From positions 186,001 to 250,000 of the forward strand of contig JAHQIW010007136.1 of the NCBI GenBank assembly GCA_019055375.1: 64,000 nt of DNA, given 5' to 3'. Shown in pieces: positions 4,789 through 59,637 of the stretch; positions within the stretch are counted from its first letter, which is position 1, and each line of letters starts with the position of its first letter. The stretch is from Parelaphostrongylus tenuis (lineage: Eukaryota; Nematoda; Chromadorea; Rhabditida; Metastrongylidae). The notes under the pieces are model-generated. The model was not told the DNA's origin. It ran no database searches and saw nothing but the letters and a program-made list of their open reading frames with translations. A program made the translations under genes and the position numbers.

Positions 4789-7700
4789 CTAGTCCAATTC
4801 AATATCCATTTGCCCATCGGGAAGAAGAGGTACTTCACTGAGGGGAACCTGAAGAACTTATCTAACATTCCCTACTCACAGAGTGAAAGACCGATAAACA
4901 ATTAAGTCTCAGATATAGAAGTAGAAATGAAAAATATCTCATGAACTGTTCTCCTATAACTTATTACACGACTTGTGGATTACCTAAAGTATTGATGTTT
5001 CCTGGACCACTTATAGTAAAAGTTTCCAATAACACTTAGAGAATTTCTTATCTCACACGAAGAGTTATAGGAAAAAAAATATGTTCGAGCTCCGAAAAAA
5101 GGCGAAGTCGCCGTAACATCAGCTATCGATTTTGAAGTATATATACAAACACAGTGCAAGATTTTGATGAAAGGACACCTCGTGGGAGAAAAATACTCAA
5201 TATATATCCGTTGATGTGGAGTGATGTGCAAAACCTTCGCGTAGAGCGGGACGCTCTACATCAGGTCGTTGACGGCTGGCGTCTGACAGATAGATGCACT
5301 GTAATGTAGAAAGAGCGATGTGCACAATGGGCGTCAGTAGTGTAACGGATAGAGCACGCATTCCCACAAAGAGTGAGGTTCTAGTCCCGCCTGACGCGAA
5401 AGTTTTGCACATCACTGTACATCAACGGGTATATAGTTGTAACATCTACCACCGCTAGAAGCGGGTCTTTGATACTTAGAAATATTAACAGCGAAGGAGT
5501 AAAATAATCCTAGAATCACATCGGTTTGGAAATTTTCAACAATAACAAAATCGAAACAAAATCTACCTCCTAGAACTGTGATATGTCCGATGAATACTAC
5601 AGGTCATATACTATCCTATAACAGGAATAATCATTAGAAATTTCCACACACACCTCTATTTCTCCTTCAATCCAATCAGTATCAGGCGTATACAGTTCTC
5701 GAATTGTATCCTCCATCCTTAAGGGTTCAGCTGAGTATTCGGGTTCCTAAATTCACATCTCTACGATCGGTGAAACCCCACTTTTTAAAAAAATTAACTC
5801 CTGAAACTTTCAGAACAAAGAAAGTAAACGAAAGATTTATCACACATTTTCAGAAACCTACATCAAAAGCTGCAAATAATTTTTAGCCATAAGGACCCAT
5901 TGTGTGCAAAGAAAAAAAGTTAAAGGGAAAAGCACGGAAGAAAACAGAAGCTTGAAAAAATTGTCAGATATACGACTATCTATCTAAGAATGGTGACTGA
6001 TACGTAAAACCTTCAAACCCAAGTGGGAGCTGAACCCGTGTCTCACCGCTTCCATAGGCGAATGCTACCACTAACACCAGCGAGACCGTAGTTTCGCTAC
6101 TACTCTTCAATATAATGCGCCGACTTTCGAACAAAGAATGCAGGCAGAGAAGTGGCCACGGTGGCGTAGTGGTAGCACGGGCCTCTGGTAAGGGTGAAAC
6201 TTAGATTCAGCCTCGCCCGGGTTCAAAAGTATTGCATATCACTCAGAATTCTTGGACATAAGATTATACCATCATGAAAGTGCTATAAGAGCAGTAACTA
6301 AAATAAAAGTGAAAGCAGAATGAAAGATTCTGTATACGCTGATTTATTCTCTGTTCTGGTATGACTCAAAAAACCAGGAGAACAATTACACGTTGGGCGA
6401 GAGTGATCGCGGCTTGTGCAAAGATGGAATTGTGTTTGATATTAGAATACATCGAAATGACCGAAAACACTGCAAAACCAGAATGTGAAATCGCAGTTAC
6501 TTAGCGCCCACTTATGATGAAGAGCTTGAAAGCAGAGAAAATGGTTACACCTGAGAACAATAGATAAAGAAACAAATTCACCTACTTTATCCATAATATA
6601 ACCTATAGATCCATAGATGAGATAACGAGAACTCACTTCGTAAACAAAGTGCCGTTGATTTAGTAACCGAGAAATTCGGCCCAAGCTTCATAGGCTCCTT
6701 CATAAAATCTTCACTGGGCGCTTCAGCACACAAATGTGGAGGAGAATCTCCAGAGTCCACTACTTTTATGGGCAACACGGGAGCACCTGCTATGGTCGTA
6801 ACTGGATTGTACGACCGTCTCCTGACGAACTGAACTCGACACGTCGATCCATTCATTCGATCACCATATCCTGCAAGACAAAATTACCTGTAGAACCTTT
6901 TTCCATGTTAAAAGTCTTTCTATACTCAAAGACAAGATTTTCAATAGATAGTATAGCATGTAAACCTTGGAGAACGGCCGCTAACTGTTAGCTTACCATA
7001 TTCGTCGTCCACCAAAAATCTATTCAGCTCCTCGTCAGGAAGAGAAAATGGGATACGATCCGACTGGCCAACATAGCTGAAAGATCAATGTGGACATGAA
7101 AGTAAGGAAAAACAAACAAGATTGATCCGAGCAGCTCTAACTCCATAGAACCCCAAAAAAAGGACAGCTCTTATTTCTGATGAAAATCAGAAACACAATT
7201 AATATTCCTCACTTATACCCTTTCCTAACGAAGGACCAAACTTTCCAAACGAATGAGACAAAGACGATCAAAGGTCAGACACTACCTCATCTAGATTATT
7301 GACTGAACGAATTTTCGGGTTCAAAAAAAATTGGCAAATACAAGCCAGTAAAAAGTCAAATCTCTAGGATCACTAGAGATGAGTTATCTAAATCAATCTA
7401 CAAAAAGAAGTGAAAACCCGTATTGCTCGCATCCTACATTCATAATATTCTTCCGAGGAATGGAAGAGAAACTATAGTAAGCTCAGAGTTCCAAATGACC
7501 TTCGTTTTTTCATAGACGGAAATCGAGAACAACACAGGACTAAACTCCACAACATAACTCCCGTAGTGTACACAAACATTACCTCTCTAATCTTTTATAT
7601 CTTCTAGTGACGCAATCTTAGATTATAAAACTCCTGGCACTGGCAAAATAGAAACTCACCAGTCGTAACTGTTGTGTTTAGCCAAATGTTCGCGAAAATG

Positions 7701-15965: not shown

Positions 15966-16262
15966 AGGTACTGTTCGGTTGCGAGGGGGACTAATAGAAA
16001 ACCGATCTCATTCGCTGGAGAGGAACTTTTCATAGGAGTGTCAGTGACCATTTGAAACCTCAGACATCAGGCTACAGCCCCACGTCGCCGGTTTTTCAAA
16101 ATTCACTTTTATAACGATATAAAATTCTTTTTGAAACCGGCTAAGTGGGGTTGTAGCCTGAAGTCTCAGCTTTCGAACTGCTACCCTCCCATGAAAAGTT
16201 TCTCTAGAGCGAATGAGATCGGCTTTTTATGCATTAGCCCCCTCATAACCGAATTGTACCTA
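15966..16262. mobile_element. MITE-like element with about 130-bp inverted arms
   Basis: The two halves are near-perfect inverted repeats: GGTACTGTTCGGTTGCGAGG at the left faces CCTCATAACCGAATTGTACC at the right, and the arms continue inward past AAAACCGATCTCATTCGCT and ACTTTTCATAGGAGTGTCAG to a short AT-rich centre near 16110. There is no coding capacity. Single arms recur at 37785-37880, 38760-38885 and 61080-61190. Confidence 0.85.
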
Positions 16263-23051: not shown

Positions 23052-26000
23052 TCAGAAAACAGAGCACATTCTCATAATATACGCCACTGTGAAATTTTCA
23101 ATACTTTGACTTTGATTCTTTGGCTTGGCGAAACCGATACGTCCCTCACCAAAGTCGTGGATGTTGCAGAAACTGCGACTCCAGGGAATACCAAGGCTCC
23201 AGTAAGCTCCGTAACCTGTGCCAGAAATTGGGACGATAGCCAGAACACACTGAAACCATCTACTTGTTTATTTTGAAACACAGATATACGAAAGTTCAGC
23301 GCGAAGTCAACGAAACAAAGTGCGTGCTGTTTTCCGGCTTTCATCAAGAGGACTAACGGGCAATGTTCAAGACAATTCAAATAAGACTTACACTCTGCTT
23401 AAAGCCTACAAATCTGACGTATCTTTGTAAAATAAAACCACATGTGGTTAAAAGGCACGTAAATGTGATGAGTCTGATATCCTAACCTGTCCACCTCCGA
23501 GTTCGATATCAATCACGAACTGCTCTGATGGTACACTGTATGTAACGCCATTGATGACGAACTTCAAATCTGGCTGGTCCACCATTGTCGAGCAGTTCAC
23601 GGTGTACATTTCGATGTCATAATCAAATAGGGCGCCGGTTTGGCTGACCACTTCGTTCATTACCCTATATGGCACTCCAATCCACGAGGTGGAAGTATCG
23701 GACACGGCCTATACATAGAAACTACTTTGATAAAAAAAAGAATTTTAAATACATCATTTCCTTCTTGCTCAGTTGATCTTAGTGCCATTTAATGTTTTTA
23801 CATGGCAAGTGAAACAGCGCATCATTTAGATGAACTTCACACCTACATCTTGATGATATGGCTTTGTCGAAAAAACTCCCAATAGAGAAGCCTTCTAAAG
23901 GGAACTGCCACCAGCCTTCTTGAGACAGGGTAACATAGTTGATTTCCGATTCACAGTTGGTGGTGTCTATGGCTCCAAAGGTGATCAGACCGCCACTGCC
24001 TCCAAGACTTCTGTTGAGCTGAAAGTAATTCCTCATAACATTTATTGTATTTCTACTAATCAAATTAGTGCAGTGGATAGGGAATATGAAATCTAAGTGT
24101 ATTTCACCATACTTCATTTATTCAAGCTCAAACCACTTTTCTCCTGAATCCTTCTAAGACATTAAATTTTTTACGAGTCAGTCACGACGTTTGAATACGT
24201 GAAAATGCTTTCCATTTTTCAGATAGAAGGCCTGAGTAGTCAAAACAGTATTGTACTGAGAAAGGCATGTATTCTGGAGCAATAGGAGAATGTTTTGCTA
24301 TGTTTATAAGTCGGTCAATTGCTCATATTCGTTCTGAGCCTATCAACGCTTTTTGATAACTGGCTACAGCTGTTAATGTGCAAGGCTATATTGAAGCTTA
24401 GATATGTATGAATCACCGAGTCATGTTGTTACTATCGTTATACTGAGCCGCTACCATCTTGACACTGCGAAGACTTTTCATCGCTTAAAAACCGATGCAA
24501 TGGTGTCACATGTGCATATATCAGCAATCTCGTTGAGAAAAATTATGCAGAAGTAAAAATCTTACTGACGCAGAGATGCAACTGTTCAAAGAGAACTTAA
24601 TTTTGTAATAAAACCCACATTCCTTTCAAACCAGATAGTAAAGATGGGCGCGTCAAGGCTTGGCAGGAGATTTTGCATAGGTGATCTGGCCTGGAAACAC
24701 TCATTTTCATTCGTTTCATTCCGAGGTTATATCCGAATTATTTCAGTTATTGTAATATGTGAATCCACCACGTCAGCTGATTGCGGAAATGAAAGCCCGA
24801 AAAATCCGTCAAACGGCAAGTAGCCAAAGGATTCAGAGATACTTGCGGCATTTACAAATCCCTGTTGTTCGATTGATAAACCTGCAAAGATAATATTAGC
24901 TGCTACGACCAAAATCTTTCTCCTATCAATTTTCGATATTTTTTATGCATGTGTCAAAAGTAGAAAGTTTATTCGACCATTAAGCTCTATAAGCAGTGAA
25001 GTAAAATTCAATTGATGTTAAATCCTAGAATTAGTGAAACGTATCGAATATGCTGCGCCAAAGATGGGACATACTGATAATCTTCCAAACACATAATATC
25101 ATACTTAATTACCAAGGACGATTTACATGCAGCTAAGATGTGGCGATTGAAAATAATCGTTTTATTAAGTCTTCACATAACTTTTTGAACTAAAACATAA
25201 GCCCCAAATTTAATAGCCAGAAGTAATCAGGAAAGCCTTCAGTATTAATTAAAAAGCTTAAATCTTGACAATTTCAAGAATGTGTTCAATTTGCATAAGT
25301 CTTTTCCTCATTGCGTCGTAGCAGCAAAGATAACATTATGCTTCATAATATTTCACACTCAGTTTGGTTTGCTCGCTCGGCTGGGGTTTGTGGGTGGCCT
25401 GCCGCATAGTTATTGATGATTATTCAATAGCCTAAATCATCAACTATCTTTTCTGACATTTCTCAGGATCTCGCATCGAGCGCTATTGAAGCTGAAAAAT
25501 CATCACTTTTCGCACTCGGAATAATTAGCGCGTTGCTTGAACATCATAGTTGATTTATTTCTGAGTTTGAAGCAAAAAAAAAGTTTGTGCCTATAAAACG
25601 ATAAAATGAAGTTTGGCTTGCGGCTTTGGCACAAAAGGCCTAGATCTTTTTAGAATGCCCAAATTTATAACTAACGGAAAAAAGCTCGCCTTACGAATGG
25701 TGCTGCGCGCAGCCTTTTCAACTATCTTTTCGAAAAGGATCTTGATTCGAGAAGCGCCTGATTTTTGCTATTGACCCAGAAATTATTTCTCCGTTTCGGA
25801 AAAATTTCACGGTCCTTTGTATCGAAATTATAGAAGAGACTTTGTTCCATCGTACATGCGTACAAAATTTTAATTGCTTTATATTCCCACCCAAAGATTT
25901 CAACTAAGCAAACAAAGTAAGCCGAGTGTGAAACGTAATATTATTTTTGTTGCTACAATGCACTGAGGAAAGTTTTATATGATTTCAAAACATTTTTTGA

Positions 26001-28008
26001 ATTCGGAGGGTATAAGCTTTGAACTGACTATTGCGAACCTTTTTATTATTTCTGGTTGATAAGTTTGATGTGTATTGCTCCAATGCCAAAACTTATGAAA
26101 GGACCTAACAGGTTGGGGGAAAAATTTCAAGAAAATGCTTGTAACTTTTTTGAGTGCCGGTTTTTATGTTTCTGGGCTCATCTGAAAGTCCGTCTTCTCG
26201 CGCGTTGACTGGTATATGGTTCATCTACTATTTCAAGATGGAGTCAACAAGCCAGCAAAGTTGGTTGTTGGTGATGCACGAATGGCTATTTGGTCAAATG
26301 CAACAGTGGCAAGTGAACGCATCAATTTGGCTTGGGGCGAAGTTTATTATATTAGTTTTATTAGCTTATATTATACTATATATTAGTTTTATATATTATT
26401 ACATTATATATATATGTATATTGGTTTATCTTTCTTCAGGTGTAATAGGTGCATAAATAAATGTTTTACAAGCATTTTCTCAGAACGTTTTCCCAGCCTA
26501 TTGTTATGATCAGCTTGAACTAGCGCTAGCACTTGTGTCTGTGAAATACGATGCAGCAAGACAGTCACCGGCAAAGGAGATGGTATCCTTCACAACGGGC
26601 CCTTTCAGCCATCCATAATCATTCACAAGGCGCACTGTATCTCTAAATGGGGTAACCGTTGACGATTTGCTAGCGTCAAATTTGCGTCTGGTATATTCGC
26701 TGCCAAGGTAGCCATCGCAAGCTTCTGCGTCACACTTTTCGTCGATCATCCAAACGATTGACATGCTGGTGTCGAGAAGCAGAGAAACGTTTTGCCCTAA
26801 AAGTGATTATATCATAGGTTTACCGAAAGTCTTCTTGATAGCTATGATCACTGGGAAGTGTGTGATGACTTGTAGAATAGAAGATAGTTTGAAGAGTAAG
26901 TCTTTAGATAATACATTCCAAACCAGGAGATAGGATTATTCTCTGAAAACAAATGTTCACGAGTTTTTGTTTAAGCCACGACTAATAAGTTTCTCCACCC
27001 TCTAATATTTACGTATATACAATATTTGTCAGCAGAACTGAGTTCAATGCCGACATGTGGCTGCCAGGCCAAACCGGTGAAGCTTGACTGATGACAGATT
27101 TATAGAATTGTATCGCAGAGTGATGGCAGCTCAGGAGCATAGAAAGTGCAACAGGCTAGCACGCTCGATTCCCGTCTGTGTTTAAGGTTTTGCATATCAG
27201 TCATCATTATTAAGCGGTGATCTCTTCCTCCTTATTCCCTTTGTAGAACAAATTTCACCGAACACTCTTCAATCTATTCGAAAACATTCCTTCTGAAAGT
27301 GCGCTGCACTATCAACTATCAGTTGATTTCTTCGAAGAACAGAAAACGACTGATATCTCTTTGATTACCATAACACTCAATAGAGACCTACCGGGTGTGC
27401 CGACGGTGACGGTTACGGTGTAAAATTCATCATAATAGTCCATAAGAGATTGTGATCCATTCTTGGACACTTGTGCCCGATGTAGGCTTCGTTCCTCCAG
27501 GTATTTGTGGTACAAGTTAGCCCTCAAATGCAGTATAGTTGTTTCTGCTTACCGTATTTCACATTCTTACTTCTCATTGTCACTGCAATATCTTTGTTTC
27601 GGTTGGTTCTCTAATTATCATTACTCAGAAGTTTTCAGCTGCGCAGCTGTCAGTCTACCATTCAACGAAGATGCGTAATCGCTTAAGGTCAGATGCAGCA
27701 CTACTGCACGTGTACACTGTGTAAGTGATCAGCGCTCACAAGAAGGTGAGGAGCAGTAGGAAGCGAATGGGTGGTGCAAAGCCATTCCCACTCGCAGTTC
27801 AGATTCTAAGGAAACATCGCAATATTGATTAAGGTAGATTCATGACATCTCCGATCCTCTTCAAGCCAGTCCTTGTTTCGATCTAAAGTTTCTATGAGAC
27901 TTACTTGGTCAAACGGGCTCTCAGCGATCCTGACGAACGCGTCTCTATCTTGTACGACATGGCATGAAGTACGATTGCTAGAGCGGCAATGATGAGAACT
28001 GTCTTCAT
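23052..28008 (-). CDS. Pepsin-like aspartic protease (A1 family), copy A, one apparent frameshift
   Basis: Eight exons: 27905-28008, 27392-27522, 26569-26796, 24769-24881, 24619-24690, 23847-24018, 23487-23708, 23052-23249. Phases are 2, 1, 1, 0, 0, 0, 0, the same as in the paralogue at 39-43 kb. With the reading frame kept, about 412 residues: signal peptide 1-16 (MKTVLIIAALAIVLHA), short propeptide, then two catalytic lobes. The first active-site motif is DTSMS at Asp87, the second DTSTS at about Asp277; the family norm is DTG. Cys pairs in the positions usual for pepsins (KCDAEAC; NCST) and the C-terminal IHDFGEGRIGFAK are present. Such secreted enzymes digest proteins in the nematode gut. 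A flap Tyr equivalent appears to be Asn. Exon 6 is 172 bp against 171 in the paralogue: an extra T in a T6 run (23870-23875) breaks the frame before the second catalytic Asp. That may be real decay, a weak alternative donor (GAA|gttcat), or an assembly error. Confidence 0.82.
25000..26460. repeat. Long intron of protease copy A with mariner-like debris
   Basis: The intron between exons 3 and 4 is much longer than in copy B (about 1.7 kb against 0.34 kb). It contains about 26040-26360 resembling mariner-associated sequence (QQSWLLVMHEWLFGQ frame), followed by AT-rich (TATATA) sequence to 26420. Insertion after the duplication is the simple explanation. Confidence 0.45.
27100..27210 (+). repeat. 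SINE-like fragment inside protease intron 2
   Basis: GCAACAGGCTAGCACGC...GATTCCCGTCTG...GGTTTTGCATATCAGTC has the layout of the 5209-type repeat right half. Confidence 0.4.
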
Positions 28009-35680: not shown

Positions 35681-35781
35681 TTCTCCTATACCTTTCCTTC
35701 GAGTGCTTTATTGAGACCACGCTCAAATTTCAATAGATCCTTTCATTATTATTTGAGCCAACATGTCATGTGGTCTGGTAA

Positions 35782-35844
35782 AGGCTCTTGTACAGCCCGA
35801 GACACGTGTTTCGTCCTTACAGACTCATCAGCCGGGCAGAACCC
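35782..35844 (-). ncRNA. Type I hammerhead ribozyme, GUC cleavage site
   Basis: Minus-strand reading: outer stem GGGUUCU pairs with AGAGCCU; stem I GCCCGG pairs with UCGGGC; core CUGAUGA; stem II GUCU-GUAA-GGAC with a GUAA tetraloop; core GAAA; short palindromic stem III ACACGUGU; then C17, giving a canonical GUC site. All invariant hammerhead core positions are present. A 6-nt bulge (UGUACA) lies in stem I opposite the place where loop-loop contacts form in natural hammerheads. The palindromic stem III resembles minimal animal type I hammerheads thought to act as dimers. Confidence 0.85.
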
Positions 35845-36047
35845 GTCGTCTGTCGATCTTTTCATAGTCAGTTCTCTCGGGAGCGTCAACACTCCTTATA
35901 TATAGTTATCGACGACCTACTTACACTCTACGTCAGGTGAAACATTCACCTAACACTGAGTGTTTTCCGCACTCGATTGCTAGCTGGCTGGTATTTTTAT
36001 CATATTTATCTTTCCTTCGAGTGCTTTATTAAGACCACGCTCAAATT

Positions 36048-36200
36048 TCAATAGATCCTTTCATTATTATTTGAGCCAACATGTCATGTGGTGAGAATTT
36101 TCAATAGATCCTTTCATTATTATTTGAGCCAACATGTCATGTGGTGAGAATTTCAATAGATCCTTTCATTATTATTTGAGCCAACATGTCATGTCAGAGA
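36048..36200 (+). repeat. Three tandem copies of a 52-53 bp arm segment
   Basis: TCAATAGATCCTTTCATTAT...CATGTCATGTGGTGAGAATT starts at 36048, 36101 and 36153. It is a local amplification of the outer arm of HA-1. Confidence 0.9.
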
Positions 36201-36228
36201 ACTGACTATGAAAAGATCGACAGACGAC

Positions 36229-36291
36229 GGGTTCTGCCCGGCTGATGAGTCTGTAAGGACGAAACACGTGTTTCGGGCTGTACAAGAGCCT
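36229..36291 (+). ncRNA. Type I hammerhead ribozyme, GUU cleavage site
   Basis: Same 63-nt layout as the inverted partner: GGGUUCU outer stem, GCCCGG stem I, CUGAUGA, GUCU-GUAA-GGAC, GAAA, ACACGUGU, then U17 (GUU, an allowed NUH site) and UCGGGC. Only the base at the cleavage position differs between the two arms. Confidence 0.82.
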
Positions 36292-36350
36292 TTACCAGAC
36301 CACATGACATGTTGGCTCAAATAATAATGAAAGGATCTATTCTCCTATAC

Positions 36351-38150: not shown

Positions 38151-38514
38151 ATGTGAAACTAAGTCTTATATTGCCTGCCAAGCCGTATTTCCAGAAAATA
38201 AGCACATGGCTAATCAAGAAACATTACGCTATTGGATAATGAGTCTCTAATAGTCTATAGAAAGAGCTCTGTCCGGTGAGGTTTAAAGCACAAATCAAAA
38301 GACCGAGAGAGATCAAAAGACCGGGAGAGATCAAAAGAGCTTTTTGAAAAGCAAACACACTTTTGAACTCTTCAGTGCTTGTGCTAAAGTTTGAGTATTA
38401 GCACTCTAGAAGAGGAGTTTTGTGCAGTGAGATATAAGCGAGATAATAGAAAAAACACGCAGTCTTAAGAAGCATGATTTTGAGCGATAAATAGATAGAT
38501 AAATAGAAAATAAA

Positions 38515-38690
38515 AAGAGCGATGTGCAAAATGGGGTCAGTAGTGTGACGGATAGAGCACGCATTCCTGGAAAGAGTGAGGTGCGGGTTCTAGTCCCGTC
38601 TGCCGCGAAAGTTTTGCACATCACTCTACATCAATGGGTATCTATTTGAGACATTATAACACCGCTAGAAGCGGTTAAATAATCAGTATT
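38515..38690 (+). repeat. SINE-like right half with hairpin tail
   Basis: GTGTGACGGATAGAGCACGC, GGTGCGGGTTCTAGTCCCG and GAAAGTTTTGCACATCACTC match 5325-5432. It is followed by ATGGGTATCTATTTGAGACA and a hairpin ACCGCTAGAAGCGGT-type tail. Confidence 0.6.
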
Positions 38691-47978: not shown

Positions 47979-48124
47979 GGTTTATAAATAATTAAAAAAA
48001 ATATATATAGACTTAGTAAATATCGTTTCCGTACTACTGAGTTGATATTGAGCGCTATTTCTTTGAAGTTTTGACTTAGTTCCATTCATTATTATTTGAG
48101 CCAACATGTCATGTGGTCTGGTAA

Positions 48125-48187
48125 GGGCTCTTGTACAGCCCGAGACACGTGTTTCGTCCTTACAGACTCATCAGCCGGGCAGAATCC
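48125..48187 (-). ncRNA. Type I hammerhead ribozyme, GUC cleavage site
   Basis: GGAUUCU outer stem against AGAGCCC, stem I GCCCGG/UCGGGC, CUGAUGA, GUCU-GUAA-GGAC, GAAA, ACACGUGU, C17. The core is intact and nearly identical to 35782-35844. Confidence 0.85.
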
Positions 48188-48343
48188 GTCGTCTTTCGAT
48201 ATTTTTATAGTCAGTTCTCTCGGAGGCTCTGTGTCAGGTGAAAATTTTTCTTGACATAGAAGGGAAAACGTTCATATTCAATGACTCTCTGTAAGAGAGC
48301 AGAGCTCCCAAGAGAACTGACTACAAGAATATCAAAAGACGAC

Positions 48344-48406
48344 GGGTTCTGCCCGACTGACGAGTTTGTAAGGACGAAACACGTGTATCGGGCTGTACAA
48401 GAGCCC
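48344..48406 (+). ncRNA. Type I hammerhead ribozyme, GUA cleavage site
   Basis: GGGUUCU/AGAGCCC outer stem (7 pairs), stem I GCCCGA/UCGGGC (the G-U pair of the other arm becomes A-U), core CUGACGA (N7 = C, permitted), stem II GUUU-GUAA-GGAC, GAAA, ACACGUGU, A17. Confidence 0.8.
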
Positions 48407-48864
48407 TTACCAGACCACATGACAAGTTGGCTCAAATAATAATGAAAGGATCTATTAAAATTTAAACATGGTCTTAATAAAGCACCCGAAATAAAGGTAT
48501 AATTTTGACTCAGTTGTTTTCCACATTGCTCATAAGAACTGTGATGAACCATAACAAAGTTCAAAGTGGTATCTGCGATGTAATGCGGCGGTGGCATCGA
48601 TAATTTCCTCCTATGTTGGAATGAAGAATGTTTGATAAAGTATTACAAAGATCAGGTTGGTATCTGCAATGTGTTGATGTGCTAGCTTCGATCATAGCTT
48701 TCAGAGCCAAATTGAAGAATTTGTGATAAAATATCACGAAAATCAGAATCATATCTGTGACATGATTTGGCGATTACCTTGATCATGCCCTCCTATGCTC
48801 AGAACATTCCCTCCACAAAGTTTTATTCAGGATTAGAGGAAATTATGATTGAATAAGTGAACCC

Positions 48865-53914: not shown

Positions 53915-54112
53915 GATATATATCATGTTGACATTCCAGCTAATAAATGTAGAAATTCTGTATTCATGGAAATCCACAAAAGTCAGTAATAAAAGATGAA
54001 ATTGATGGAAAGAGATATATATCATGTTGACATTCCAACTAATACATGTAGAAATTCTGTATTCATGGAGATCCACAAGAGTCAGTAATAAAAGATGAAA
54101 TTGATGGAAAGA
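53915..54112. repeat. Two tandem 99-bp units
   Basis: Units 53915-54013 and 54014-54112 start GATATATATCATGTTGACAT and differ at only about six positions. The length is 33 codons and one minus frame stays open through both, but nothing marks it as coding. Confidence 0.9.
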
Positions 54113-54529
54113 GATTGAACCAGAGACCATGAGTTTTTTGTATGGCGTCTCCGTTCAATACGTTGTGCTTTAATCGGTCTAATACTCTAATACATGCTAT
54201 AAATGTTCATTATGTGGTTCAAAACAGAGTGTTAAAAGCAAAGCAATTTTGTTACTAGTGTTGCCTAATTGTCAAACCTCGTCGAATACCAAATCTTTCA
54301 CCAACATTACCTAGAACTGAACATTTGGGAAAAATGTGATGGGGCATGCGGTTAAACAGAAAGGCTGCGTTCTGTTACTTTCCTTTCATTCGTTGGCTTT
54401 ACTTGCTGATGGTTCATGTATTCAGAATACAAACGCTATTTTGTCACTAATGAAAGGACTGTGTATTGATCTTTACATAAATAAACACGGCTGTGAAAAC
54501 CATTGAACCCACTGATGTAGAGCAATGGG

Positions 54530-56699: not shown

Positions 56700-57420
56700 T
56701 ACAAGATATTCGTCAATATAAGGGCCATCACTATCCACGATTTCCTGCCAACGATCTACAAGCTTCCGCTTCTGTTCGAAATCAACAGATTCTGCAACAA
56801 CTGGCGACAAACTCGAACGCGGCGATTGGCTTTAGCTATGTCAATATGTGCGGATCTTGGAAAAGTTTCTTTTTGGCATCGATGAGCTGTTGGAAATGCT
56901 GCTAGACTGTCTTTTGATCGACGCTACGTTCTGTTGCCAATTCACTAGCGCTTGATGCGGTTCCGCATACAAAGCTGCTTGCGGATCTGCATCGTCCAAC
57001 TACGTTGGCCGGCTCGAACGTGGCGCTTCCACATAAGAGTGGCGAGTAGTTGGAAATTTTCATTCAGTGTGAACCACACGATTTAATCCATTGTGTTGAA
57101 ATGTGGCAAATCTGACGACTAATTGTACCCGCACTAAAGGTCTAGAAACTGCTTTTGATAAATAGCATCGTTTAGAGGACGAAATGCGCAAGAGCTTAGC
57201 CGTGTTTAAACTTAAGTCCTTGGACTTAAAAGTGTTGACTAATCCAAGGCTCAGTTTTTCCCTTGAAACGTGCTGGTGATAGCTGGCAGCGTTGACTTTG
57301 ATGTTTCTGTTGTTGGAGACCATCGCCGTCTTTCCGGTGACGCAAATGCCGGCCCAGACTATCACAGAGAGCGGAAGATGACAGTGGAAGATGGTTTTTG
57401 CTACTGCAGACATCTGCTGA
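56700..57420 (-). pseudogene. Tc1/mariner-type transposase fragment, broken
   Basis: The minus frame 57060-57413 reads LSVIVWAGICVTGKTAMVSN then NIKVNAASYHQHV, a block typical of Tc1-like transposases (VMVWGGIC...GKT...VN...YQEHV) that surrounds the second catalytic Asp. Downstream (57050-56700) the frame is broken by stops, but the order of conserved pieces continues. It belongs to a different lineage from the mariner relics at 20.7, 41.9 and 50.1 kb. Confidence 0.75.
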
Positions 57421-57891
57421 CCCTCCTTAAAAGTTGACGCCGACTATGGCGATTGATTTCTGAGGGAAGCCTTCAGAAATCGATGTGCAGTGTGAATTGT
57501 GCAGTGGTGTGGAATTATCGCTGGTGGTTTAGCGTTTTTTCACTGTTTTGTAGTGTTTTTTTAGGTTTCTTGCATTGCTTTGATACATACGATTTTGTCT
57601 ACCTGCTCATATTCTTTTGGCACATTTATAGCTCTTCTGTATGAAGCAGAGCTCTAGTTAACATGCAGTCATACTGTTTTTGGCATTCAGTCAAATGTAA
57701 TAAGTTCTACAAGGAACTTTATTATGTAGACGCTTAGGTCTTAAATAATTTTGACTATATCCAGCGCACAAAAATCGTTATAATTATTATTTATCATAAC
57801 TTTCGTTTCGAGTGTTTTCTTAAGACCACAGCTCAAATTTCAATATGCCTTGCAATCATATTTGACCCACTCATGTCAGAGGTCTGCAAAC

Positions 57892-57966
57892 AGGGCTGAC
57901 TTATAGAGTCCGATACACGTGTTTCGATCTTGCGATCTCGTCAGTCGGGCTTCATAAGTCAGCCCT
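57892..57966 (-). ncRNA. Type I hammerhead ribozyme, subfamily 2, GUA site
   Basis: Outer stem of 13 pairs, AGGGCUGACUUAU with AUAAGUCAGCCCU; stem I GCCCGA/UCGGAC (one mismatch); CUGACGA; stem II GAUC-GCAA-GAUC, fully paired with a GCAA tetraloop; GAAA; ACACGUGU; A17. Stem II differs at several positions from HA-1 yet remains paired. Confidence 0.82.
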
Positions 57967-58218
57967 CTTTGGCAGACCACTGACATGCGTGGCTCAAATA
58001 TGTTTGCAAGGCGTATTGAAATTTGAGCTGTGGTCTCAAGAGAACCCTCGAAACGAAAGCTGTGATATATTGAATATACTAGCCGCGAGGAATCGAGTGT
58101 ACAACATTCTGTGTTTGGTGAGTTTTTCACTGGACATAGAGTGTAAAACGTTCGTCGTCGCTAAATCTTAATGTGGGAACTGAAGCTCTCACAGAGATTA
58201 GCAAAAGACGAGAAAGAG

Positions 58219-58282
58219 TAACTGCCCGACTGACGAGATCGCAAGATCGAAACACTTGTATCGGGGTCTATAAGTCAGCCCT
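58219..58282 (+). ncRNA. Hammerhead ribozyme, subfamily 2, partly decayed
   Basis: Core CUGACGA, stem II GAUC-GCAA-GAUC and GAAA are intact. Stem III is ACACUUGU, A17 follows. Stem I has GCCCGA/UCGGGG and the outer stem is lost on the 5' side. Confidence 0.65.
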
Positions 58283-58398
58283 ATTTGATAGACCACTGAC
58301 ATGCGTGGCTTAAATATGATTGCAAGGCATATTATTTATCAAATAGCAATGAATATCTTCAATTTTATTTGAGCCCATAGGTCATGTGGTCGGGTATA

Positions 58399-58460
58399 AG
58401 GCTCTTGCACAGCCCGCTACGCGTGTTTCGACCTTACAGTCTCGTCAGTCGAGCTGAACA
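58399..58460 (-). ncRNA. Hammerhead ribozyme relic
   Basis: CUGACGA, GACU-GUAA-GGUC and GAAA are kept. Stem III is ACACGCGU and stem I GCUCGA/GCGGGC has a mismatch next to the core. Cleavage is doubtful. Confidence 0.55.
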
Positions 58461-58681
58461 CGTCGTCTTTCAATCTTTTTTAGCCAATCCCCTGTGAGAG
58501 TTCCAGTCCCTACACTAAGAGGTGTCGAAGATGAAAGCTTTACACTGCAAAACAAGTGAGAATATCACAGAAAACTCACAGTGTCGTACATTCGATTGCT
58601 CTTTAAGTGGTATTTTTACCATATTATACCTTTATTTCGAGTTCATTTTTATTTAAGCCAACATGTCATTTGGTCTAGTAA

Positions 58682-58744
58682 GGGCTCTTGTACAGCACGA
58701 TACATGTGTTTCCACTTTATAGTCTCGTCAGCCAGGCAGAGCAC
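58682..58744 (-). ncRNA. Hammerhead ribozyme relic, same orientation 283 bp away
   Basis: CUGACGA and GAAA present, but stem II reads GACUAUAAAGUG, replacing the closing G-C pair by G-G, and stem I has a mismatch. It lies in direct orientation with 58399-58460. Confidence 0.45.
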
Positions 58745-58961
58745 GTCGTCAATGGTCGAAATTTGAGCGTGGTCTCAATAAAACATTTGAAATGAAGGTA
58801 TAATATGAAGAAAATACCAGCCAAGGAGCAATCGAATGTACAACACTGTGGGTTCGGTGATATTCTCACTTCTGTTGCAGTGTAAAGCGTTCGTCTTCCA
58901 TACCTCTTAGTGTGGGAACTGGAGTACCCACGGAGGATTGGCTTAAAAAAATGAAAGACGA

Positions 58962-59024
58962 GGGGTTTTGCCCGACTGACGAGACTGCAAGATGAAAACA
59001 GTGTATCGGGCTGTACAAGAGCCC
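58962..59024 (+). ncRNA. Hammerhead ribozyme relic
   Basis: GCCCGA/UCGGGC stem I and CUGACGA kept; stem II and the second core part read GACUGCAAGAUGAAAAC, shifted from the expected GUCGAAAC, and stem III is damaged. Confidence 0.45.
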
Positions 59025-59292
59025 TTTACCGGATTACATGACATGTTGGCTCAAATAAAAACAAAATGATCTATCGAAATATGAGCGTGGTCTTAGAAAA
59101 ATACTCGAAGCTAAAGGTATGATATTTTTCATGTATTTATGTTTTTTTTAACTATCGTCTATAGCATTGAGTGGTGAGCAAAAACGCGGCCTCAGGCAGA
59201 AATCGAACCCGCTTTACATCCTATCCAGGAACGTGTGCTCTAAGGGAGTAGAGCTCTCGAGAGAACTGACTATAAAATTATCGAAAGACGAC

Positions 59293-59355
59293 GGGTTCTG
59301 CCCGTCTGACGAGTCTGCAAAGACGAAACACGTGTATCGGGCTATACAAGAGCGC
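59293..59355 (+). ncRNA. Type I hammerhead ribozyme, GUA site
   Basis: GGGUUCU/AGAGCGC outer stem, GCCCGU/UCGGGC stem I (one U-U mismatch at the core), CUGACGA, stem II GUCU-GCAA-AGAC fully paired, GAAA, ACACGUGU, A17. Compared with HA-1 the stem II wobble G is now A, restoring a Watson-Crick pair. Confidence 0.75.
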
Positions 59356-59637
59356 TTACCAGACCACATGACAAGTTGGCTCAAATAATAATGAAAGAAT
59401 GCAATAGTCAAACGTATGCTATTCACCTAAGTGATTACTCACTTATGCTATGTAAGAACTTGTAAGGAATAAATTATTTTACGTCTATGAACATACGAAT
59501 GTCAACAGTGCTTTCCCACCTCACCAGACTGATCTTTTTGTGCCAATTTCATGATCGAACATAAACGTATGTATACCGATAAGCAAGTTCACAATAAAAG
59601 ACTGGTAATATTAAGCAGAAAAAAATCGGATATGGAC

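Follow-up and report, generated by a model that had tools for sequence, protein, structure and literature searches.

A window of 64,000 nucleotides (nt) from the nematode Parelaphostrongylus tenuis (GenBank assembly GCA_019055375.1, contig JAHQIW010007136.1, positions 186,001 to 250,000 of the forward strand) was found to contain ten hammerhead motifs in three loci, carried by insertions that probably belong to one family of short, gene-less and non-autonomous retroelements, with a unit of about 318 nt that includes one minimal type I hammerhead. The family would thus be an animal retrozyme whose insertions are built like those of Penelope-like elements (PLEs). We assign it to the general class of retrozyme-type elements with good confidence, and we regard a PLE-driven route of movement as evenly balanced between being right and being wrong. 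The motifs, the unit length, the inverted arms, the direct duplications and two classes of outer ends were observed directly in the window, and they are presented below together with the alternative explanations on which they bear.

Hammerhead motifs

The window was scanned with a strict type I descriptor, which comprised CUGANGA, a paired stem II, GAAA, stem III, an NUH site and a stem I of at least 4 bp, and 300 first-order Markov windows served as the random control. Eight of the ten motifs matched this descriptor, four of them in 57795-59400, compared with no match in the 300 random windows. A preliminary description of this DNA had reported six hammerheads in 57795-59400, and six hammerhead-like cores were indeed present there on both strands, but two of them, 58709(-) and 58976(+), are broken, leaving four intact, and four further motifs lie outside that range. 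The ten motifs are as follows.

35795..35837, minus strand: hammerhead 35809(-); GUC site; Rfam 34.9 bits, above the gathering score
36236..36278, plus strand: hammerhead 36242(+); GUU site; matches the strict descriptor; Rfam 31.0 bits
48138..48180, minus strand: hammerhead 48152(-); Rfam 34.9 bits, above the gathering score
48351..48393, plus strand: hammerhead 48357(+); matches the strict descriptor
57908..57950, minus strand: hammerhead, core 57922-57944; GUA site; matches the strict descriptor; Rfam 29.7 bits
58224..58266, plus strand: hammerhead, core 58230-58252; matches the strict descriptor
58412..58454, minus strand: hammerhead, core 58426-58448; matches the strict descriptor; core-adjacent pair of stem I mismatched
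58695..58737, minus strand: defective hammerhead, core 58709-58731; G-G mismatch at the base of stem II
58970..59011, plus strand: defective hammerhead, core 58976-58998; invariant G12 lost, two mismatches in stem II, 1-nt deletion in loop III
59300..59342, plus strand: hammerhead, core 59306-59328; matches the strict descriptor; core-adjacent pair of stem I mismatched; Rfam 27.1 bits

The consensus of the motifs is GCCCGA-CUGANGA-stem II-GAA-stem III-H/UCGGGC, where the slash marks the cleavage site, with a stem I of approximately 6 bp, a stem II of 4 bp that carries a GNAA loop in nine of the ten, and a stem III of 2 bp (A-U, C-G) under a palindromic ACGU loop. Judging from the sequence, cleavage would be expected after GUA, GUC or GUU. 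A 2-bp stem III with a tetraloop is likened to the hammerheads of invertebrates, a 1-bp stem III with a palindromic tetraloop is the dimer-acting amphibian form, and minimal hammerhead variants are those of PLEs (PMC7229834, PMC7761336).

The comparison with Rfam Hammerhead_1 (RF00163), for which the gathering score is 34, gave a divided result. The covariance-model check put forward in the preliminary description failed for the cluster itself, as none of its six copies reached the threshold, and succeeded for two sister copies outside the cluster, 35795-35837(-) and 48138-48180(-), both with 34.9 bits (E 5.5e-05). In a permissive Rfam scan, from which five lower-scoring overlapping matches of the same clan were left out, 58420-58464(-) gave a weak match to Hammerhead_3 (21.7 bits), and 58230(+), 58709(-) and 58976(+) were not among the matches listed. 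A model built from the ten copies themselves returned ten matches of at least 57.7 bits, as it must by construction, and the next best match in the window scored 11.5 bits; this shows only that the window holds no further recognisable copy.

In favour of a chance resemblance to hammerheads, a loose consensus scan allowing two mismatches showed no enrichment, with 31 matches against 25 expected; it was left unused as evidence. The strict descriptor, with 8 matches against 0 in 300 random windows, and the two Rfam matches above the threshold oppose this explanation. On the strength of the descriptor, a chance origin was rejected at the level of sequence and pairing, and we give it next to no weight.

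The three stem II sequences quoted in the preliminary description were all present and paired. Among nine distinct rows, stem II pair 15-24 was A-U in five and U-A in four, and pair 16-23 was C-G in five, U-A in two, U-G in one and unpaired in one. Overall, 92.6% of the cells were paired, compared with at most 47.2% when the partner was slid. Among 500 shuffles, the percentage paired was reached by 3, the number of cells changed on both sides by 6 and the covariation score by 3, and the number of doubly changed pairs was reached by 375 and that of pair types by 322. Two stem II pairs were doubly changed, and on the tree of copies each of them looks like roughly a single change. The covariation is therefore weak, because independent changes are few, and the earlier statement that it implied selection was too strong for two pairs and shuffle results as mixed as these, although some paired substitutions are real; paired change is present but thin.

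A separate observation concerns the first 20 nt or so past the cleavage site, for example at 48388-48406(+), which read UCGGGCU...AGCCC and could form a 5-bp hairpin rivalling stem I. This hairpin was the minimum-energy fold of the first 24 nt in six of the ten copies, with different or weaker hairpins in the other four, and it might, in such predicted folds, hinder the reversal of cleavage.

Architecture and ends of the elements

Self-comparison indicated that the unit, read in the sense of the ribozyme, runs from T, which lies downstream of the cleavage site, through Y, Y' and the hammerhead to T again, and Y and Y' can pair as a hairpin both by eye and in the predicted fold. The distance from T to T was exactly 318 bp in element 36 (35689-35774 versus 36007-36092; minus strand) and also in element II (58756-58791 versus 59074-59109; plus strand). 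The elements and their target-site duplications (TSDs) are listed below, with the positions of ends, preceded by a plus sign, numbered from the base that directly follows the cleavage site.

35681..35691: left TSD of element 36, TTCTCCTATAC, an exact 11-bp match to the right TSD at 36340..36350
35692..36339 (648 bp): element 36; antisense arm longer than one 318-bp unit (long end, +109), tandem filler of 2.9 copies of 53 bp, sense arm (short end, +67)
48069..48081: left TSD of element 48, 13 bp, matching the right TSD at 48503..48515 in 12/13 positions
48082..48502 (421 bp): element 48; antisense arm (short end, +62), hairpin-like centre, sense arm (long end, +115)
57785..57796: left TSD of element I, TATTATTTATCA, an exact 12-bp match to the right TSD at 58330..58341
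57797..58329 (533 bp): element I; antisense arm (long end, +117), then a sense arm of T, Y, Y', hammerhead and T (short end, +69)
58358..59124: element II; short end, two antisense hammerheads 283 bp apart, then a sense T, Y, Y', hammerhead and T with a long end; ends placed by homology only
59238..59400, plus strand: element III; partial single arm with a hammerhead and a short end, 90% identical to 48289-48451, adjoining a tRNA-like piece of a short interspersed nuclear element (SINE)

In four insertions (36, 48, I and II), an antisense stretch is followed by a sense stretch, so that the arms lie head to head with the T ends outward; for element II, the head-to-head arms and the pair of one short and one long end were recognised by homology. 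Direct tandem units occur only in part, in elements 36 and II, and the remainder is inverted. The strict descriptor and the self-comparison thus agree with the earlier finding of type I hammerheads on both strands inside inverted-repeat elements.

The arms and their junctions differ among the elements. Those of element 36 were 97% alike over 140 nt and 99% alike over 146 nt in two comparisons, and those of element 48 fell into different groups of a small tree with a support of 0.75-0.88, which is too weak for us to claim that they came from two templates. The centre of element 48 lies, by eye, at the Y/Y' hairpin. In element I, the first base of the sense T was seen by eye to be the one that directly follows the predicted cleavage site, with an overlap of six bases common to stem I (57945-57950). 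This junction fits a complementary DNA (cDNA) whose synthesis halted where the 5' end of a cleaved RNA was reached, and the six-base microhomology would explain it equally. The inverted junction of element 36 (36044-36194) holds 2.9 copies of a 53-bp direct repeat, which are 98% alike and come from the short end of T; they are a possible trace of repeated priming or template slippage.

For comparison with the TSDs, random pairs of same-sized zones in the window were drawn; they shared a word of at least 11 bases in 0.07-0.27% of 1500 trials, and eight of 1500 trials gave a 13-mer with one mismatch or none. The TATAC part of the left repeat of element 36 could be element sequence, so that this boundary may move by a few bases. 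The outer ends fell into two classes, short (+62, +67, +69) and long (+109, +115, +117), and each of the three TSD-bounded elements had one of each, the two ends of an element differing by 42-53 nt.

Two other movers have to be considered in the light of these ends. A fold-back transposon similar to miniature inverted-repeat transposable elements (MITEs), with the hammerheads lying by accident in its terminal inverted repeats, would have the long terminal inverted repeats and short direct duplications that were observed here. Nevertheless, the termini are asymmetric to the extent given above, the TSD length varies among 11, 12 and 13 bp, and the arms of elements 36 and II exceed one 318-bp unit, which is not what a cut-and-paste transposase makes. 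We therefore rejected such a DNA transposon, mainly for its asymmetric ends and variable TSDs, and consider it highly improbable.

The other alternative is a retrozyme family moved by a different reverse transcriptase, of the long interspersed nuclear element (LINE) type, with the inversion arising via twin priming or fold-back during target-primed reverse transcription. TSDs of 11-13 bp would fit LINE-type insertion as well, the tRNA-like SINE copies in the window suggest past activity of such machinery, and no PLE coding sequence was found among the 150 longest open reading frames (ORFs) of the window. However, the occurrence of two discrete internal ends, one per arm, together with a consistent head-to-head inversion is the pattern published for PLEs (PMC3846280, PMC11167929), and neither a 3' A tail nor a simple repeat was present at the six TSD-bounded ends. 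LINE-type movement is accordingly judged unlikely.

Predicted masking of the ribozymes in place

For elements 36, 48 and I, minimum-energy folds were predicted for whole transcripts of both strands, and in all six the sense ribozyme had 40-43 of its 43 bases paired with the antisense arm. In a shorter transcript of element I, 57789-58070(-), a hairpin of 282 nt was predicted with the ribozyme 57922(-) at its apex, where stem II was formed and stem III was not (-181.9 kcal/mol). Co-transcriptional folding in the cell may differ from these predictions. The energies of RNA dimers were also computed and were left unused, since near-palindromic sequences dimerise anyway.

As the antisense arm is predicted to mask the sense ribozyme, the inverted copies more probably represent the products of insertion, and sources of double-stranded RNA, than a cluster of working ribozymes, and the working sources would be direct tandem copies at other places in the genome. 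The alternative that the ribozymes work and are maintained as a cluster with a regulatory function at the locus would agree with the intact core of four of the six cluster motifs and with the position of 57922(-) at the apex of the shorter transcript. Set against these points, two of the six motifs are broken, the copies look like mobile insertions lying side by side, and the masking was predicted in all six transcripts of elements 36, 48 and I, so that we regard a maintained cluster as very improbable.

Proposed mechanism and its weighing

The following sequence of events would account for the elements as retrozymes inserted in the manner of PLEs. A transcript of tandem units would be cut by its hammerheads at NUH/UCGGGC into monomers, which might then be circularised. 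A PLE-type reverse transcriptase/endonuclease, presumably encoded elsewhere, would make a staggered cut of 11-13 bp, and the cDNA would start inside the RNA at one of two sites, approximately +65 or +115 from the ribozyme cut. Antisense copying would proceed round the unit and in some cases run on beyond a further ribozyme, and another cDNA of opposite orientation, made on the other cut strand or arising as the palindromic middle folds back, would join the first head to head. Both of these joining routes suit the position of the centre of element 48 at the Y/Y' hairpin, and the route with two cDNAs predicts that, in some copies, the arms come from different RNAs.

We also put forward, as a tentative proposal about which doubt prevails, that these are gene-less hammerhead retrozymes of a nematode bearing the scar of PLE insertion, namely, head-to-head arms, one tail and an 11-13-bp TSD, in which the arms are two cDNAs of opposite strands, sometimes from different templates. 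If true, the elements would provide direct genomic evidence for the movement of animal retrozymes by PLE enzymes, and for the copying of both cut strands by these enzymes in vivo.

Several points weigh against the reading as retrozymes with PLE-type insertion. A convincing TSD was sought for elements II and III and none was found, the best for II matching in 8/11 bases, and element III is one arm only. The presence of one long and one short end in all four elements that have both would arise with a 1-in-16 chance if the ends were random, and is suggestive only. The difference of 42-53 nt between the two ends is larger than the published PLE tail of 30-40 nt, and direct tandem units are few. 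The predicted circles were only moderately self-paired, with 54% and 57% of their bases in pairs (z of -3.8 and -2.0), and in the eight intact motifs taken in isolation, the hammerhead fold lay 2.6-7.9 kcal/mol above the minimum, a calculation in which core and tertiary contacts are not counted. Finally, the 150 longest ORFs of the window, each of at least 71 amino acids, gave no match to a reverse transcriptase or to GIY-YIG. For this last reason, the elements are filed not as autonomous PLEs but as non-autonomous elements of the retrozyme class that are PLE-like in their working.

Other features of the window

Repeats similar to tRNA-derived SINEs were found at 38511-38674(+), 5307-5464(+) and 59169-59242(-). 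The stretch 38534-38607 was called tRNA-Ser (GGA) by ARAGORN and a tRNA by Rfam, and the other two copies match it at 85% and 70%. A palindrome of approximately 230 bp at 16000-16230, which is 78% self-complementary, has related copies at 37.8, 38.8, 52.7 and 61.1 kb, among others; this MITE-like family gave no match to the hammerhead elements in that search. In addition, a 99-bp segment occurs as a tandem duplicate, 96% alike, at 53915-54115.

As for genes, an aspartyl protease (Pfam PF00026) was recognised in three minus-strand exons, 23451-23708, 23782-24117 and 26513-26806, one of which gave as its best PDB match a chain named 'Parasite pepsinogen' (6row, E 1.1e-07), with gastricsin and cathepsin D-like chains next in rank. 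This match speaks for an animal source and plausibly for a parasitic nematode. The 150 longest ORFs included an aspartyl protease in five and single weak matches to four other families, and 10 of the 14 ORFs of at least 120 amino acids had only weak, sub-threshold matches in Pfam. For the ORF at 57063-57443, which neighbours the elements and lies outside them, a protein search confirmed no relative in a collection that is poor in animal sequences.

Comparison with known systems

Hammerheads have been described in PLEs and in short animal repeats (PMC11167929, PMC7229834). The suggestion in the preliminary description that the kind of inverted-repeat element was undescribed is not supported, as head-to-head inverted pseudo-long terminal repeats (pLTRs), a tail and TSDs of about 10 bp are known for PLEs (PMC3846280). 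Pen2a_Av of Adineta vaga has pLTRs in both direct and inverted orientation, a tail of 31 bp on one of the inverted ones and a 9-bp TSD; another PLE insertion has a 10-bp TSD, and TSDs are 8-10 bp in the cases considered, with some copies having none. Inverted PLE copies mostly lie head to head and show palindromes where they meet, and self-priming has been proposed for them (PMC3846280). A PLE protein has been purified that cuts each of the two strands and extends it, with the cDNA starting at two internal sites of the RNA that bound the tail, and the PLE hammerhead cleaves only when the protein is present, hammerhead mutants being without effect on insertion in vitro (PMC11167929).

The present elements share with the inverted-pLTR PLEs (Pen2a_Av, PMC3846280; Poseidon_Ac, PMC11167929) the head-to-head terminal units, a short extension on one of them, a TSD of about 10 bp, the insertion of one element beside or into another and a hammerhead in the terminal unit (for the hammerhead, PMC11167929). 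They are unlike PLEs in the lack of any ORF for a reverse transcriptase or GIY-YIG among those searched and in a whole unit of only 318 bp. They resemble the non-long terminal repeat retrozymes of animals in being gene-less, with a unit in the range of 170-400 nt, one type I hammerhead per unit, TSDs of more than 4 bp (in the published retrozymes, when present) and a low GC content (PMC7229834). Animal retrozymes are described there as direct tandems, and the word 'inverted' is absent from the main text of that paper, whereas the copies studied here are mostly inverted pairs with PLE-like ends. The W-elements of schistosomes (PMC8490949) and Sm-alpha/Sj-alpha (PMC8490949, PMC6155905) are also short hammerhead repeats in a worm, although of another phylum, and are likened here by description only.

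Within nematodes, PLEs have been annotated in a paper from whose main text the word 'hammerhead' is absent (PMC7960049). No nematode hammerhead retroelement was evident among the entries listed by searches of an open-access library for nematodes, hammerheads, PLEs and retrozymes, although we do not claim its absence from print, and the family in this host may be undescribed. Viral contigs searched with two element patterns and genome contigs searched with one gave no match, in collections that are poor in animal sequences and silent on distribution. Our reading would place hammerhead retroelements in a nematode, from a group not named in the hammerhead and retrozyme papers that were searched for the word.

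The mover of animal retrozymes has been left open in the literature, with PLEs as a strong candidate (PMC7229834), as has the origin of inverted PLE copies (PMC3846280). The elements described here unite both descriptions, combining a gene-less unit of retrozyme size with PLE-type ends, and with this combination, a count of ends and arms over a single genome could put both questions to the test.

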